From Oscillospiraceae bacterium (GTDB taxonomy: Bacteria; Bacillota; Clostridia; Oscillospirales; Acutalibacteraceae): a stretch of DNA of 64,000 bases. Below, one piece after another: positions 5,118 to 64,000 of the stretch. The notes beneath the pieces are model-generated. The model was not told the DNA's origin and did no database searches. It saw nothing but the letters and a program-made list of their open reading frames with translations. Positions within the stretch are counted from its first letter, which is position 1, and each line of letters opens with the position of its first letter. The DNA lies in assembly GCA_015065925.1 (NCBI GenBank), contig SVPL01000004.1:1-64000 (forward strand), in the 5' to 3' direction. Made by a program: the position numbers and the translations under genes.

Positions 5118-5145
5118 ATAAGTGTTTTAGTATAATATTAACACT

Positions 5146-5301
5146 TTCTTCTCTCATCCGGACTTTACAGACTATATAAATCTGTTTACCGTCGGTTTTG
5201 GAGTTTCACCAAATCGGCTACGAAAATTTCCGTAGTTCACGGACTTAAAGGCATTTGCCTTATCACCGTCGGTGGGGAATTTCACCCCGCCCCGAAGAAA
5301 T
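5146..5301 (-). promoter_or_regulatory. FMN riboswitch (RFN element)
   Basis: Minus strand: TTCTTCGGGGCGGGGTGAAATTCCCCACCGACGGTGAT...AGTCCGTGAAC...GGTGAAACTCCAAAACCGACGGT...AGTCCGGATGAGAGAAGAAAG matches the RFN consensus blocks. Confidence 0.95.
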
Positions 5302-5344
5302 CTTTTTTACATTATATGATAATCAGTGGCTTTTGTCAACCGTT

Positions 5345-7668: not shown

Positions 7669-7745
7669 CTGATAACTGTTAAAGTCAAGCCAAAGTTAAA
7701 GCCTAAGCTCTGCTTTAACCCAAGCGCTTAGAGGCTTGAAAAAAC

Positions 7746-7851
7746 ATCCCTCCGTCGGAATTACCCGAATCAGGTTCCAGAGTTGGGTAGTAAACCCTCT
7801 CAGCCGAATGACAAAAATCCGCGGAATTTTCGTCAAAAACAGCACCCCTTG
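7746..7851 (-). promoter_or_regulatory. TPP (thi-box) riboswitch
   Basis: Minus strand: GGGGTGCTG...CGGCTGAGAGGGT...ACCCAACTCTGGAACCTGATTCGGGTAATTCCGACGGAGGGATG. Confidence 0.95.
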
Positions 7852-7903
7852 TTTTGTTGTCAAGGCAATTATAATACAGCTTTATAAATTTGTCAAGAAA
7901 AAA

Positions 7904-43584: not shown

Positions 43585-43676
43585 GGAGAGATGGCTGAGC
43601 TGGTCTAAGGCGCACGACTGGAAATCGTGTTCAGGCTTAAACCCTGACGGGGGTTCGAATCCCCCTCTCTCCGCCA
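43585..43676 (+). tRNA. tRNA-Ser (anticodon GGA), CCA encoded
   Basis: GGAGAGATGGCTGAGCTGGTCTAAGGCGCACGACTGGAAATCGTG...variable arm...GGGGGTTCGAATCCCCCTCTCTCCGCCA. Confidence 0.95.
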
Positions 43677-43825
43677 AACGAAAATCCGTTCACGAAAGTG
43701 GGCGGATTTTCGTTTTATTATTCATTATTCAATATTCATCATTCATTATTCATTAAAAGTGAACGGATTTTCGAATGAATAATGAATATTGAAGTCGCCT
43801 TCGGCTGATGAATAATGAATAATTT
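43677..43825. repeat. Imperfect-palindromic repeat, copy 1
   Basis: AACGAAAATCCGTTCACGAAAGTGGGCGGATTTTCG...GTGAACGGATTTTCGAATGAATAATGAA..GTCGCCTTCGGC..GAATAATGAATAAT. Confidence 0.75.
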
Positions 43826-44038
43826 AGTTGTGGCTTTGCCGAAGACGGTTCTTTTGTTGATTCTAAAACAGCTAAAGAATATGTTGTTGTAAGGCAGAGT
43901 GTTGCACCGAACACAGAATTAAAATACACTTTCAAAATGAATGAAGACGGCACAGAATCCAAATACCTTATTGAATCACAAAACATTGAAGAAATCGAGG
44001 TATATGTTAAGCGCATTTCAGAAGAAAAACAAGAATAA
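43823..44038 (+). pseudogene. Start-less C-terminal coding remnant
   Basis: Open frame CGFAEDGSFVDSKTAKEYVVVRQSVAPNTELKYTFKMNEDGTESKYLIESQNIEEIEVYVKRISEEKQE* with a stop at its 5' end inside the repeat and no plausible start. Confidence 0.5.
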
Positions 44039-44108: not shown

Positions 44109-44265
44109 AACGAAAATCCGTTCTCGAAAGAGGGCGGATTTTCGTTTTATTATTCAATATTCATCATTCATTATTCATTAAAAAAGAACGGATTTTCGAA
44201 TGAAAACGCAAGCCGCTTCGCTAATGAAGTCGCTCACTTCGTTCGCTAATGAATAATGAATAATA
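44109..44265. repeat. Imperfect-palindromic repeat, copy 2
   Basis: AACGAAAATCCGTTCTCGAAAGAGGGCGGATTTTCG...GAACGGATTTTCGAATGAAAACGCAAGCCGCTTCGC...GAATAATGAATAAT. Confidence 0.75.
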
Positions 44266-44314
44266 TTGTCTAAATTAGTAATTTGTGCTATAATACCATA
44301 AAGGATGTGATTTA

Positions 44315-44671
44315 ATGAAGGAAAATGTTTTGATAGATAAATCTATTGCATTTGCTTCAAGAATAGTAAAACTACATGATTTCTTAATCAAAAACAAAAA
44401 AGGCTTAACCCTAGCGAAACAAATCATTCGCAGTGGAACGAGTATAGGTGCAAATATAAATGAGGCAAATTACGGTCAAAGTCCTGCAGATTTTATTTCC
44501 AAAATGCATATTGCATTAAAAGAAACTGCCGAAACAGAATATTGGATTAAATTGCTTCATATGTCTGAATATATTGATTACAAAATGAGCAGTTCACTAC
44601 TTGATGATTGTTTAGAAATTAAGCGAATTTTGGTTGCATCCATAAATACTGCAAAGGAGAATAACAAATAA
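44315..44671 (+). CDS. Four-helix bundle protein (23S rRNA intervening-sequence protein family)
   Basis: LAKQIIRSGTSIGANINEANYGQSPADFISKMHIALKETAETEYWIKLL signature. Confidence 0.9.
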   Translation: MKENVLIDKSIAFASRIVKLHDFLIKNKKGLTLAKQIIRSGTSIGANINEANYGQSPADFISKMHIALKETAETEYWIKLLHMSEYIDYKMSSSLLDDCLEIKRILVASINTAKENNK

Positions 44672-45217: not shown

Positions 45218-45362
45218 AACGAAAATCCGTTCTCGAAAGAGGGCGGATTTTCGCCCCAATTATTTATTATTTCATCATTCATTATTCATTAAATAAAAGA
45301 ACGGATTTTCGAATGAATAATGAAGAATGAAGTCGCCTACGGCTGATGAATAATGAATAATT
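45218..45362. repeat. Imperfect-palindromic repeat, copy 3
   Basis: AACGAAAATCCGTTCTCGAAAGAGGGCGGATTTTCG...GAACGGATTTTCGAATGAATAATGAAGAATGAAGTCGCCTACGGC..GAATAATGAATAAT. Confidence 0.75.
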
Positions 45363-45450
45363 TTAAGGCTAACCATTTGTTTAAGCGACCTATTTTTAAT
45401 CAAAAAATGCCCCCAACATTTTTTTGATTAAAAATTAAATATAAACAAAA

Positions 45451-51933: not shown

Positions 51934-52017
51934 GCGGGTGTGGCGGAATTGGCAGACGCGCTAGACTTAGGATCTAGTGTCTTCGATGTGCAGGTTCAAG
52001 TCCTGTCACCCGCACCA
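51934..52017 (+). tRNA. tRNA-Leu (anticodon TAG), CCA encoded
   Basis: GCGGGTGTGGCGGAATTGGCAGACGCGCTAGACTTAGGATCTAGTGTCTTCGATGTGCAGGTTCAAGTCCTGTCACCCGCACCA. Confidence 0.95.
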
Positions 52018-60637: not shown

Positions 60638-60657
60638 CCTGTATCGCCACCCGCACC
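60638..60657 (+). repeat. Degenerate third copy of tRNA-Leu 3' end
   Basis: TCCTGTATCGCCACCCGCACCA vs TCCTGTCACCCGCACCA: CACCCGCACCA identical, short internal insertion. Confidence 0.6.
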
Positions 60658-60667
60658 AAAAAATAAA

Positions 60668-62519
60668 GGGGCTGTAAAAAAACAGTCTAAAAAATCCGAG
60701 GTTCGCGGTTAAACACGAGTCTCGGATAATTTTTTATCTAAAAATCATAATATAATGACAAAATATAGAAAAAACAGGGATTTTGGGTACAAAAACCAAG
60801 CCGACCGTTTTTTGTCGGTTGATAACTTAAATAACTTTTTAGTTTTTTAAGCCGCAAGTTGTCGAGCAAGGCTTTTTAAGTGGTATTTGTGAAGATTAAA
60901 ACCGCAAGAAATCATTGCAATCTCTAAAATTACACTTTTTAAACCTCTTCTTCGTATCCTTTGGTATGATTTGTTACATTTTATTGTACCAAAGGCTCCT
61001 TCAGCTTGTATGCTTCTGTTCATTCGAAGTAATGCACCGTGAACGCTGTTAAGATTACTTAAAACTTCTTTATGAAATTCGGTTAGTTCCTCGTTCAAAC
61101 GGACTATCCTATTGCCTTCGCATTTACAACATTTTTCTTTGTGAGGGCAATTAGTACAGTCTTCGCATTGGTATAGTTCTTCTGTCCTGCCATACTTGTT
61201 TCCCTTGACAGGTCTACTGTAAAGATATGTAAATTCTTTGCCGTTGGGACAAACCGGATTACCATTTTCACTTATGGGAAAATTTACTGCTCTATATGGA
61301 TTATCTCTGTATTTACTATCTTCCGTTTCTTTTTTGAACATTGTGAACTTCATATATTTTTCCATTCCGTGTTCTTCGCAGTAAAGATAGTTGTTAAAGC
61401 TACCATACCCTGCATCAGCTACAGGATATTTGGGGTATTTTCCGTATGTTTTATTAAACTTTTCCATTAAGGGCTGAAAGCAATCCATATCTGATGCATA
61501 TTGCTTTACATCAAATACAGAAATGTATTCGTCACATATGCCAATCTGAATGTTGTAGCCAGGTAAAAGCTGGTCGTTACCCATATAGTCTTTTTTCATA
61601 CGCATAAAAGTAGCGTCTGTGTCGGTTTTTGAGTAACTATTTCTTTCTTCTCCGCAAATCTTTATGTGTTCAGCGTATTTCTTTAATTTATTTGTGTATT
61701 CCACCAGCTTGTCGTAATTCCTCTGCTCTACAGACTTGTGATGTCCTCTGCCTCTAACTATCTTCTCTGGATGCAACCAAAAAAGACGTGCATATTGCTC
61801 TGCTATCTGTTCTAGATATTCTATTGCGTATTCGGTGCGAATACCAAACTTTACGCATCTGCAAGCTACTGTTTCGTTTATCTCTTGCAATAGTAAAGTT
61901 ATCTTTTCAAAGGTTTTATTACGATTTTTTAAGCAACTCTTTTTCCATACCCAACCGTATTTATATGCATTTGCCGGAATTTTAGTCCCGTCGATGTAGA
62001 TGTGCTCGGTATCTACTTTTTCTTTTGAAAAAATACATCCGTTTATTTCAGCAAAAATATCTTCTATATTTTCTAAAAGTGTTTCATTCATAAAATTGTC
62101 TATGGTCATATGACTTGGGGGAGCATTGTCCTGTAAAAGCCACATAAAACGAATGTCTGTTTTGCAGAGTTTTTCTATTTCACGCAGTGATACATAGCCT
62201 TTTTCCATAAATGCAAACAGTATTACTTTTAGCAAGATTTCTGAATTATATCTTTTGCGACCTGTCTTGCTTTCCTTAACAGCAAGATATTTTCTTAGGT
62301 CGATACAATCCATAACCTCGCAAAATGTATATACCGGATCAGAAATTTCTATTATTGTTGAAATTTCTACTGGTAATTTTAATTGATATGTGGTATTATA
62401 TTCTTGTCGGTTATTTTGTTTTTTCATCAACTACATTATACCGCAAAAAAGACTACATTCCTATCCTTTTTGGATAAGTTTGTAGTCTTTTTTTATTTGA
62501 GCCGTTTTTTTACAGCCCC
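60668..62519 (-). mobile_element. IS1182-family insertion sequence
   Basis: Terminal GGGGCTGTAAAAAAAC (60668) and GTTTTTTTACAGCCCC (to 62519) flank a full transposase gene. Confidence 0.88.
60847..62430 (-). CDS. IS1182-family transposase
   Basis: DLRKYLAVKESKTGRKRYNSEILLKVILFAFMEKGYVSLREIEKLCKTDIRFMWLLQDNAPPSHMTIDNF; IDGTKIPANAYKYGWVWKKS; NPVCPNGKEFTY; C-terminal RSIQAEGAFGTIK. Confidence 0.92.
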   Translation of the reverse strand: MMKKQNNRQEYNTTYQLKLPVEISTIIEISDPVYTFCEVMDCIDLRKYLAVKESKTGRKRYNSEILLKVILFAFMEKGYVSLREIEKLCKTDIRFMWLLQDNAPPSHMTIDNFMNETLLENIEDIFAEINGCIFSKEKVDTEHIYIDGTKIPANAYKYGWVWKKSCLKNRNKTFEKITLLLQEINETVACRCVKFGIRTEYAIEYLEQIAEQYARLFWLHPEKIVRGRGHHKSVEQRNYDKLVEYTNKLKKYAEHIKICGEERNSYSKTDTDATFMRMKKDYMGNDQLLPGYNIQIGICDEYISVFDVKQYASDMDCFQPLMEKFNKTYGKYPKYPVADAGYGSFNNYLYCEEHGMEKYMKFTMFKKETEDSKYRDNPYRAVNFPISENGNPVCPNGKEFTYLYSRPVKGNKYGRTEELYQCEDCTNCPHKEKCCKCEGNRIVRLNEELTEFHKEVLSNLNSVHGALLRMNRSIQAEGAFGTIKCNKSYQRIRRRGLKSVILEIAMISCGFNLHKYHLKSLARQLAA

Positions 62520-62530
62520 TTTATTTTTAT

Positions 62531-62740
62531 CCAATCCGAAGGATTGGTATGTAATCTCGCACAGCGAGGATGTAATCACGCGGAGCGTGTATGGCATCAC
62601 CGCAGGTGCATTTTCCTTCGGATTGATTACATACATCACTTTGTGATGATTACATACCGACTTCGTCGGATTACATCCACGGCGTTGCCGTGATTACATA
62701 CATTTTCTGACGAAAATGATTACATACAATGCTCCGCATT
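62531..62740. repeat. Array of ~10 non-identical hairpins joined by a constant ~10-nt linker (GATTACATAC / GTATGTAATC)
   Basis: GATTACATAC exact at 62625, 62648, 62692 and 62718 plus GATTACATC at 62669; reverse-orientation linkers at 62548, 62569 and 62590; hairpins with mostly 3-nt loops between them. Confidence 0.9.
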
Positions 62741-62787
62741 GATTTATTTCCGCTTTTATGCTATACTAAGCTAAAGGCGGTGATAAA

Positions 62788-64000
62788 ATGAAGGATAAAT
62801 TAAATAACCGACAAGACGCTGGTTTTGTTAAGCGCATATGTTTTTCAAAAGAGTGTACTGTTTTTTATGTTATATTAGCGATATTGTTTATTCTATTAAA
62901 TATTTTTACTGTTCCAAATCTTTTTTCATCAGGGGGGTGGCTCTTTGATACAGAAGATAGGGCTGTTCTTTTAAGTGTGGCAGCTTTGATAGTTTTTCTT
63001 ATTTTGATTATTATTTTGACGCCGTCTAGGTTGAAAAAGAAAAACACGGAACGTGTGGATGATGAGCCACAGCCATCAGTCTGGGATAAAATATTTGCAT
63101 TTTGGCTTCCTTTTTGCTTCTATATAATAGCGCAAATGATAGTATTGGGGATTTGCGAGAAATATTCACCTTATTTTGATACATCACTTATTGTAATTTT
63201 GTTCAATGGTATTGCTTTATGTGGTTTGGTTTTTATTTGGATAACAATTTGTGCAGTTCTGTATATTGTTGCACGGTCTGCGCTCTGGTACTTTATTGGC
63301 TTTTTGACGCTTAATTTTGCTCCGATAATTATTAGCTATGGCTGTTATGAAATTTATAATACCATTTCTGTGGCACCTTATAAAGCGTGGAATCCTTTTA
63401 ATTTTAATCTGTTTTTTGTATCAACGGTAACATCAATCGGCTTCCCCATAGTTTTTATTTTAATAACAAGCGTTATTATTGGTGTTTTTGTGTATTTATG
63501 GCGTAGAAATAAAAAACTCAAAATAATTGGGTTAACCGCATTTCAAATTATTTACAAGATATTAGTAATTTTTTTGATTTCACTTTCTGCGGCTTTTTAT
63601 TTATCAAGCCTTTTTATTGGGGAAGTTCAAATTGCATTTAACTACATTTTATGCTTTTTAGTTGTGGCGTTGTTGGTGTCGATTGTTATGTGCTATTTTG
63701 CTTTTCGTAGAAATAAGCCTATATCCCGCACGATTATAACCGGTCTTGCTGTAGTTGTTTCCTGTACTATTATTTGGGGATTCATACCTTCTACTGCTCA
63801 AAAAGAGGCTTATATATTACCTGATATAGAAGACATAGAAAGTGTTGAATTGTTTTTGGACTCTATAGAAACATTTGAAGTAGACAAGTATTTTGAGGAT
63901 TGTATTGACCTACATAGTTTTTTATTGAAATTGTTTAAAGATGGATATTTGCCTGATGAGACCGAATATCCATACGAGGAGCCTGAATGTATTGCAGATT
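62788..64000 (+). CDS. Multi-pass membrane protein of unknown function, truncated by the window end
   Basis: Hand translation from ATG 62788: MKDKLNNRQDAGFVKRICFSKECTVFYVILAILFILLNIFTV...; open to 64000, absent from the ORF track. Confidence 0.75.
   Translation, partial: MKDKLNNRQDAGFVKRICFSKECTVFYVILAILFILLNIFTVPNLFSSGGWLFDTEDRAVLLSVAALIVFLILIIILTPSRLKKKNTERVDDEPQPSVWDKIFAFWLPFCFYIIAQMIVLGICEKYSPYFDTSLIVILFNGIALCGLVFIWITICAVLYIVARSALWYFIGFLTLNFAPIIISYGCYEIYNTISVAPYKAWNPFNFNLFFVSTVTSIGFPIVFILITSVIIGVFVYLWRRNKKLKIIGLTAFQIIYKILVIFLISLSAAFYLSSLFIGEVQIAFNYILCFLVVALLVSIVMCYFAFRRNKPISRTIITGLAVVVSCTIIWGFIPSTAQKEAYILPDIEDIESVELFLDSIETFEVDKYFEDCIDLHSFLLKLFKDGYLPDETEYPYEEPECIAD

Follow-up and report, generated by a model that had tools for sequence, protein, structure and literature searches.

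Linker-hairpin arrays behind tRNA genes in gut Clostridia and their association with IVP (PF05635) genes

Described relatives and the array in the window

Proteins of the PF05635 family became known in the 1990s, from intervening sequences in 23S rRNA. The intervening sequences (IVS) of Coxiella and Leptospira encode such a protein (S23p/IVP) and are regarded as selfish, and in Coxiella a variable number of heptameric repeats lies directly before the S23p ORF (PMC4990558). Xanthomonas S23p is described there as a pentamer of four-helix bundles that forms a toroid (Lin et al. 2006, cited in PMC4990558), and PF05635 was still termed functionally uncharacterized in 2024 (PMC11270868). The nearest named RNA is Gut-1 (RF01706), a 77-nt model of a free-standing non-coding RNA from the human gut with unknown function (Weinberg et al. 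2010, PMC2864571); the main text of that article does not mention the full array, the tRNA position or the IVP link reported here.

The window analyzed in this work, i.e., the whole stretch of 64,000 nucleotides from an Oscillospiraceae bacterium (contig SVPL01000004.1), carries an array that extends from 62529 to about 62744 in plus-strand coordinates, as read from the window sequence. The array and its surroundings consist of the following features.

60645 to 60658, plus strand: CGCCACCCGCACCA, a tail resembling a tRNA-Leu 3' end, directly before the terminator half
60659 to 60667, plus strand: 5' half of the terminator hairpin, AAAAATAAA, split off by IS1182
60668 to 62519, minus strand: IS1182-like insertion (DDE_Tnp_1_6, DUF772) with TIR GGGGCTGTAAAAAAAC and a transposase ORF at 60847-62430
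62520 to 62528, plus strand: 3' half of the terminator, TTTATTTTT
62531 to 62547, plus strand: hairpin H1, CCAATCC-GAA-GGATTGG (sequence reading, covariation)
62548 to 62609, plus strand: remainder of the left arm, with H2, H3, H4 and linkers oriented GTATGTAATC
62610 to 62624, plus strand: central segment TTTTCCTTCGGATTG; CCTTCGGATTG within it is complementary to the 5' arm and loop of H1
62625 to 62744, plus strand: right arm of five hairpins, with linkers oriented GATTACATAC
62739 to 62767, plus strand: promoter-like TTGATT-17 nt-TATACT, by sequence reading, with its -35 inside the last array unit
62788 to 63999, plus strand: downstream gene for a membrane-type protein, 536 amino acids on the contig, no Pfam match

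The array thus contains nine hairpins and one central segment, and its linkers flip orientation mid-array, so that the left and right arms can pair with one another. All stems named in a sequence-only reading of this DNA were found in place, and the flip noticed there is borne out by the positions and strands of the linkers. Exact copies of GATTACATAC lie at 62547 (minus strand), 62625, 62648, 62692 and 62718, the variant GATTACATCC lies at 62568 (minus strand) and 62669, and the window holds 11 linker matches with at most one mismatch versus 3.3 expected. That reading took TCCTTCGGATTG at 62614 for a fifth hairpin, which we assign to the central segment instead, and it rightly noted that this unit is the reverse complement of part of the first one, the match being to the 5' arm and loop of H1. 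Its description of the linker as invariant was too strict, for the left-arm copies vary (GTATGTAATC, GGATGTAATC and GTATGGCATC) and, in other genera, all linkers within an array switch together, to GATGATATAC or GATTCCATAC. The array is no CRISPR, as had been concluded there: 10-nt linkers that flip, and palindromic spacers that are reused between loci, set it apart in repeat layout.

On the left, CACCCGCACCA precedes the IS1182-like element, and the tRNA-Leu of the window (51934-52014 in Rfam coordinates, with CCA following) likewise ends in CACCCGCACCA. Other array copies have unsplit terminator hairpins (AAAAATAAAG..CTTTATTTTT). The IS1182-like element lies exactly within the terminator hairpin, and its terminal repeats, GGGGCTGT..ACAGCCCC, form a hairpin there again. 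We ruled out that the array belongs to this element, which its terminal repeats delimit to 60668-62519 and which cuts the terminator in two; among the ORFs inspected, no transposase of this kind adjoins the other copies. On the right, a promoter-like -35 overlapping the last unit recurs, by sequence reading, in many array copies. Elsewhere in the window, Rfam placed FMN and TPP riboswitches at 5142-5303 and 7730-7859, both on the minus strand.

Folding, dispersal and position of the arrays

When the 221-nt array was compared with dinucleotide shuffles, its fold gave z = -7.8 as ssDNA and z = -7.2 (plus strand) and -5.7 (minus strand) as RNA. Of the 60 distinct units flanked by two linkers in the genus, 43 form a perfect stem of 4 bp or more, versus 5.9% of shuffled units. 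Pairing holds in 94.9% of the cells of 28 left arms, and 54 cells are double changes versus 18.9 in shuffles (0 of 500 shuffles as high), a signal that is lost when the partner is slid by 1-3 columns. With compensatory changes this abundant, hairpins are kept while the stem sequence changes, as the sequence-only reading had proposed, and the stem covariation whose absence it would have held against a new element is present.

Complementarity of at least 9 nt between H1 and its own centre was found in 92/112 copies, which comprise 48 H1 types, versus 12% of cross pairs, and it covers the loop, beyond what the H1 hairpin alone requires. H1 is predicted from these sequences to have two alternative pairing partners, its own 3' arm or the centre.

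The array is dispersed and not unique to this contig, as a search of related genomes of the kind suggested by that reading made clear. The window genome (2.57 Mb, 96 contigs, 86% complete) holds about 12 further copies, and a strict two-linker pattern matched in 6/8 genomes of the genus and in none when read backwards. Thirty-eight copies of the genus were read by sequence. Those with both arms readable share the flip and a common order of parts, the exception to the flip being L095, with a single linker orientation. From left to right, a copy consists of the 3' end of a stable-RNA gene (...CCA), a terminator hairpin, the left arm, the centre, the inverted right arm, a promoter and a gene. R1, a covariance model built on the left arm, matches the entire left arm of the window array (62529-62632) and yielded matches in 46 of 250 genomes from the taxonomic family (32/135 genera) and, across the order, in 53/297 genomes from at least 10 families. 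We also observed that MAG contigs break at or near arrays (G000 C68 end and C77 start, G002 C17 start, and the ends of G003 C41 and G004 C46); C68 and C77 of G000 carry the same tRNA-Thr array.

In 16/38 genus copies, the terminator (left) side has an ARAGORN tRNA whose end is no more than about 200 nt away, a 5S rRNA gene precedes two more (L074 and L090), and several others are preceded by tails like tRNA 3' ends; the array begins immediately past the terminator hairpin. The orthologous Jag-tRNA-Met-tRNA-Trp locus carries a GATTACAT array in two genomes, an array with ATTCATT linkers in a third and other DNA in a fourth, and divergence among the four starts directly past CCA. In G005, two tandem cassettes of different linker type each lie behind a tRNA-Trp 3' end copy.

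Two further observations concern these loci. Sequences resembling tRNAs (GGCGCAGCGGTC, a long hairpin with a small loop, CCGCAAGAGGGG, TTCAAGTCC and a CCA end) lie directly before some arrays with no ARAGORN call (L067 1-110 and 180-290; L093 2520-2645; L124; L148). In addition, tRNA-Trp cassettes carry tandem copies of a barnase-like ribonuclease (PF00545) with barstar (PF01337) as cargo (L069 5891-6691, L081 and L093 3010-3715). Cargo was rejected as the common denominator of the arrays, the downstream genes being diverse, among those listed, except for IVP and barnase/barstar.

IVP genes as probable partners of the arrays

Since PF05635 genes were found directly behind arrays in different genera, we tested their co-occurrence. 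PF05635 is present in 44/46 genomes of the taxonomic family with arrays versus 77/204 others (odds ratio 36, p 7e-14) and in 32/32 genera with an array versus 44/103 without (p 3e-10), relatedness being handled through the genus count alone; two array genomes had no detected IVP. Over the same 250 genomes, neither RVT_1 (p 0.86) nor Y1_Tnp (p 0.20) was associated with arrays, and a reverse transcriptase or a Y1 transposase was therefore rejected as the partner. From these sequence data, the trans partner of the arrays appears to be the four-helix-bundle "23S rRNA IVP" protein, PF05635.

The window itself contains one IVP gene, within a group of arrays of a second type.

43585 to 43676, plus strand: tRNA-Ser, then at its CCA the second-type sister array (ATTCATT heptamers)
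43677 to 43831, plus strand: sister array copy 1, with terminator, ATTCATT repeats, centre GTGAACGGATTTTCG and inverted repeats
44109 to 44275, plus strand: sister array copy 2, directly 5' of the IVP gene
44315 to 44671, plus strand: IVP gene (PF05635 / TIGR02436, four-helix-bundle), the cognate type of ATTCATT arrays
45218 to 45363, plus strand: sister array copy 3

The encoded IVP passes the curated cut-offs of PF05635 (88.6 bits vs 33.8) and TIGR02436 (101.2 vs 24) and matches PDB 2rld (five chains) at E 1.9e-33. In the ATTCATT-type terminator, pairing between the 3' arm and the 5' arm is partly G.U (e.g., CCGTTCAC with GTGGGCGG; centre GTGAACGG). G.U pairs are A.C mismatches on the opposite strand, and this handful of sequences points to plus-strand RNA as the structured molecule in ATTCATT arrays.

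Other IVP clades have sister arrays of their own, with different linkers, in front of the IVP gene: ATTCATT, TTCTCTTTTC, GTGATATT, GTGAAGT, AATGATG, GTGAAAT, GATGAAATC, ATGAAGC, GTGATGT, AACATCGTT and more. R1 gave almost no matches on the first 30 IVP loci because those clades use other linkers. An intact same-strand tRNA lies within 700 bp upstream of 32/77 IVP genes, and none (0/77) lies there on the opposite strand. When linker types were placed on the IVP tree, 18 changes were needed (minimum 15) versus a shuffled mean of 48.7 (0/200 shuffles); the labels had been set by eye before the tree was built, and two rows are probably mislabelled (the first gene of L203, and L159). Linker types such as GATGAAATC and GTGAAAT are each spread over four or five genera and found behind several tRNAs, so host descent alone is insufficient to explain the match between linker and IVP.

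An independent set was obtained by scanning the species genomes of GTDB with the IVP of G002, which is of the GATTACAT type; the scan yielded 70 loci, mostly from MAGs of ruminant-gut Clostridia, a few of them already seen (e.g., L233 and L234). An R1 array lies upstream on the same strand in 62/63 loci with enough upstream sequence, and in the remaining one (L300) the array is of the ATGAAGC type. An intact same-strand tRNA was found within 700 bp in 55/63, versus 1/63 on the opposite strand, and 14 isotypes are represented. The only IVP gene of the window genome, at 86% completeness, belongs to the ATTCATT clade despite the presence of about 12 GATTACAT arrays, and these copies may thus be relics.

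About 20 further IVP genes of the taxonomic family have simple short repeats only, with neither hairpins nor a tRNA. PF05635 genes lacking hairpins and tRNA lie behind protein genes, many with simple repeats such as GGAATGCGGAATGC and TAGTATTTAGTTTTTAG (L129-L139, L141-L145, L147, L151-L153, L155, L193, L196-L199, L207, L208, L213 and L223).

The boundaries of the units were read from pairs of copies. In G002, one unit follows tRNA-Gly and another tRNA-Arg; the two do not differ over the first 120 nt from CCA, similarity is then about 88% as far as the IVP stop (offset about 555), and outside these limits the sequences are unrelated. The second ATTCATT unit of the window aligns from CCA over about 1,058 bp with the unit behind tRNA-Leu in G004. 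In 60 locus pairs, which are non-independent and were anchored ungapped, identity is 0.73 before the IVP stop and drops to 0.36 there. At the level of sequence, such matching units at different sites are the most direct sign of movement; they speak for descent of the copies and not for a mechanism.

Rfam relates these arrays to Gut-1 in part. The window array matched neither Gut-1 nor other Rfam models up to E = 5, in line with the sequence-only reading, which recognized no named family; sister arrays upstream of IVP genes do match Gut-1. L148 scored 55.8 bits against RF01706 (gathering 50), while L154, L159, L146, L158 and L150 reached 33-42 bits, below the gathering score, and some matches fall on the inverted second arm.

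Proposed cassette and rival explanations

We favour, with a probability of about 0.55, the explanation that the array forms the non-coding portion of a small mobile cassette, which would be recognised and moved via its cognate IVP. The sequence comparisons establish dispersal with a fixed left end, conservation of structure and a matched protein. The sequence-only reading had offered a structured RNA, a mobile repeat or a protein-recognised hairpin array and made no choice; the evidence favours a combination of the latter two, a mobile protein-linked cassette. What escaped that reading, since other genomes are required to see it, is the location behind tRNA/5S genes, the overlap of the promoter with the last unit, the pairing of H1 with the centre and the link to PF05635 proteins. 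Such a cassette would insert immediately 3' of the CCA of tRNA and 5S rRNA genes and, when complete (the pair mapped best gives about 0.55 kb), would comprise a terminator hairpin, a left linker-hairpin arm, a centre that pairs with H1, an inverted right arm, a promoter and an IVP gene. IVP multimers would bind linker and hairpin repeats of the matching type, either as RNA or as single-stranded DNA, for which a toroidal pentamer like that of S23p would be suited, and this recognition would drive copying or insertion of the cassette. The IVP would also act in trans on copies that lack the gene, including the window array. To our knowledge, IVP has no known catalytic site or activity, so another enzyme must cut or copy the DNA. 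More tentatively, and at somewhat less than even odds, the IVP ring and the linker-hairpin array may form the matched pair of a new mobile-element class that targets stable-RNA 3' ends, probably via an RNA intermediate, with the 23S IVS and Gut-1 as its fragments.

A serious rival is a regulatory role at the adjacent promoter, in which the array would be a multi-site operator or leader for an IVP regulator acting at the right-end promoter, and mobility would be incidental or due to homologous recombination at tRNA loci. The last unit overlaps the -35 of a conserved promoter before quite different genes, IVP is usually the first gene past the array, and variation in unit number would tune binding. 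We nevertheless consider this explanation unlikely, as it leaves unexplained why arrays follow the CCA in many tRNA isotypes, why units are bounded by CCA and by the IVP stop, and why H1 can pair with the centre. It is still less likely that the arrays are structured attachment sites used in trans by a tyrosine integrase, with IVP and barnase/barstar as cargo. Integrases classically target the 3' ends of tRNA genes, and copies of a tRNA 3' end separate tandem cassettes (TTCTGCCCCTGCCA in L069, CTCTGCCCCTGCCA in L093). An integrase gene, however, lies within about 5 kb of just 2 of about 37 arrays, G001 has sister arrays and IVPs but no PF00589 match, and cargo status alone would not predict that linker type tracks the IVP tree. 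Integron attC sites and tRNA-integrating elements share with the cassettes structured recombination sites, the tRNA 3' end as target and a tandem arrangement; the arrays differ in lacking a consistent integrase and in their linker-protein matching.

Two further explanations were weighed. Template switching during replication can perfect imperfect hairpins irrespective of their sequence, and the arrays could be neutral debris of such quasi-palindromes, with no selection and no partner. This we regard as highly improbable: a layout conserved over many genera, the matching to IVP and the location behind tRNAs would not be predicted, and the IVP association disfavours it. REPs are arrayed short palindromes in inverted orientation, with directional units and a conserved short flank. 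A REP/BIME-like repeat moved by a RAYT-type Y1 (HUH) transposase would accordingly share with our arrays the short inverted palindromes, their alternating orientation, units that have a direction and a short conserved flank, and the intergenic location seen for REP/BIME with TnpA-REP. It is the least probable of the explanations weighed, for the window genome has no PF01797 match, arrays and Y1 transposases do not co-occur, and stem sequences are not conserved, the linker being conserved and the stems variable over the 60 distinct units. REPs are treated in PMC2817692 and PMC8266576.

Returning to the IVP-linked cassette, one close likeness is to the 23S IVS, with which it shares the PF05635 family and a stable-RNA gene as insertion target. 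The IVS, in contrast, lies inside 23S rRNA and is cut out by RNase III, whereas the cassettes lie behind tRNA and 5S genes and carry their own promoter as well as long inverted arrays of hairpins. The gene behind the array at 62529 is not PF05635, but sister cassettes elsewhere encode it. The literature search, with subscription papers and preprints outside its range, returned no report tying PF05635 to tRNA 3' ends or hairpin arrays. On these sequence comparisons, the array cassettes are probably a variant of IVP-encoding selfish elements.

Each IVP clade has its own repeat array, which makes ligand and specificity directly testable by array exchange. The orphan RNA family Gut-1 gains a context, and widespread cassettes, some with toxin-immunity cargo, are described at the tRNA 3' ends of gut Clostridia.
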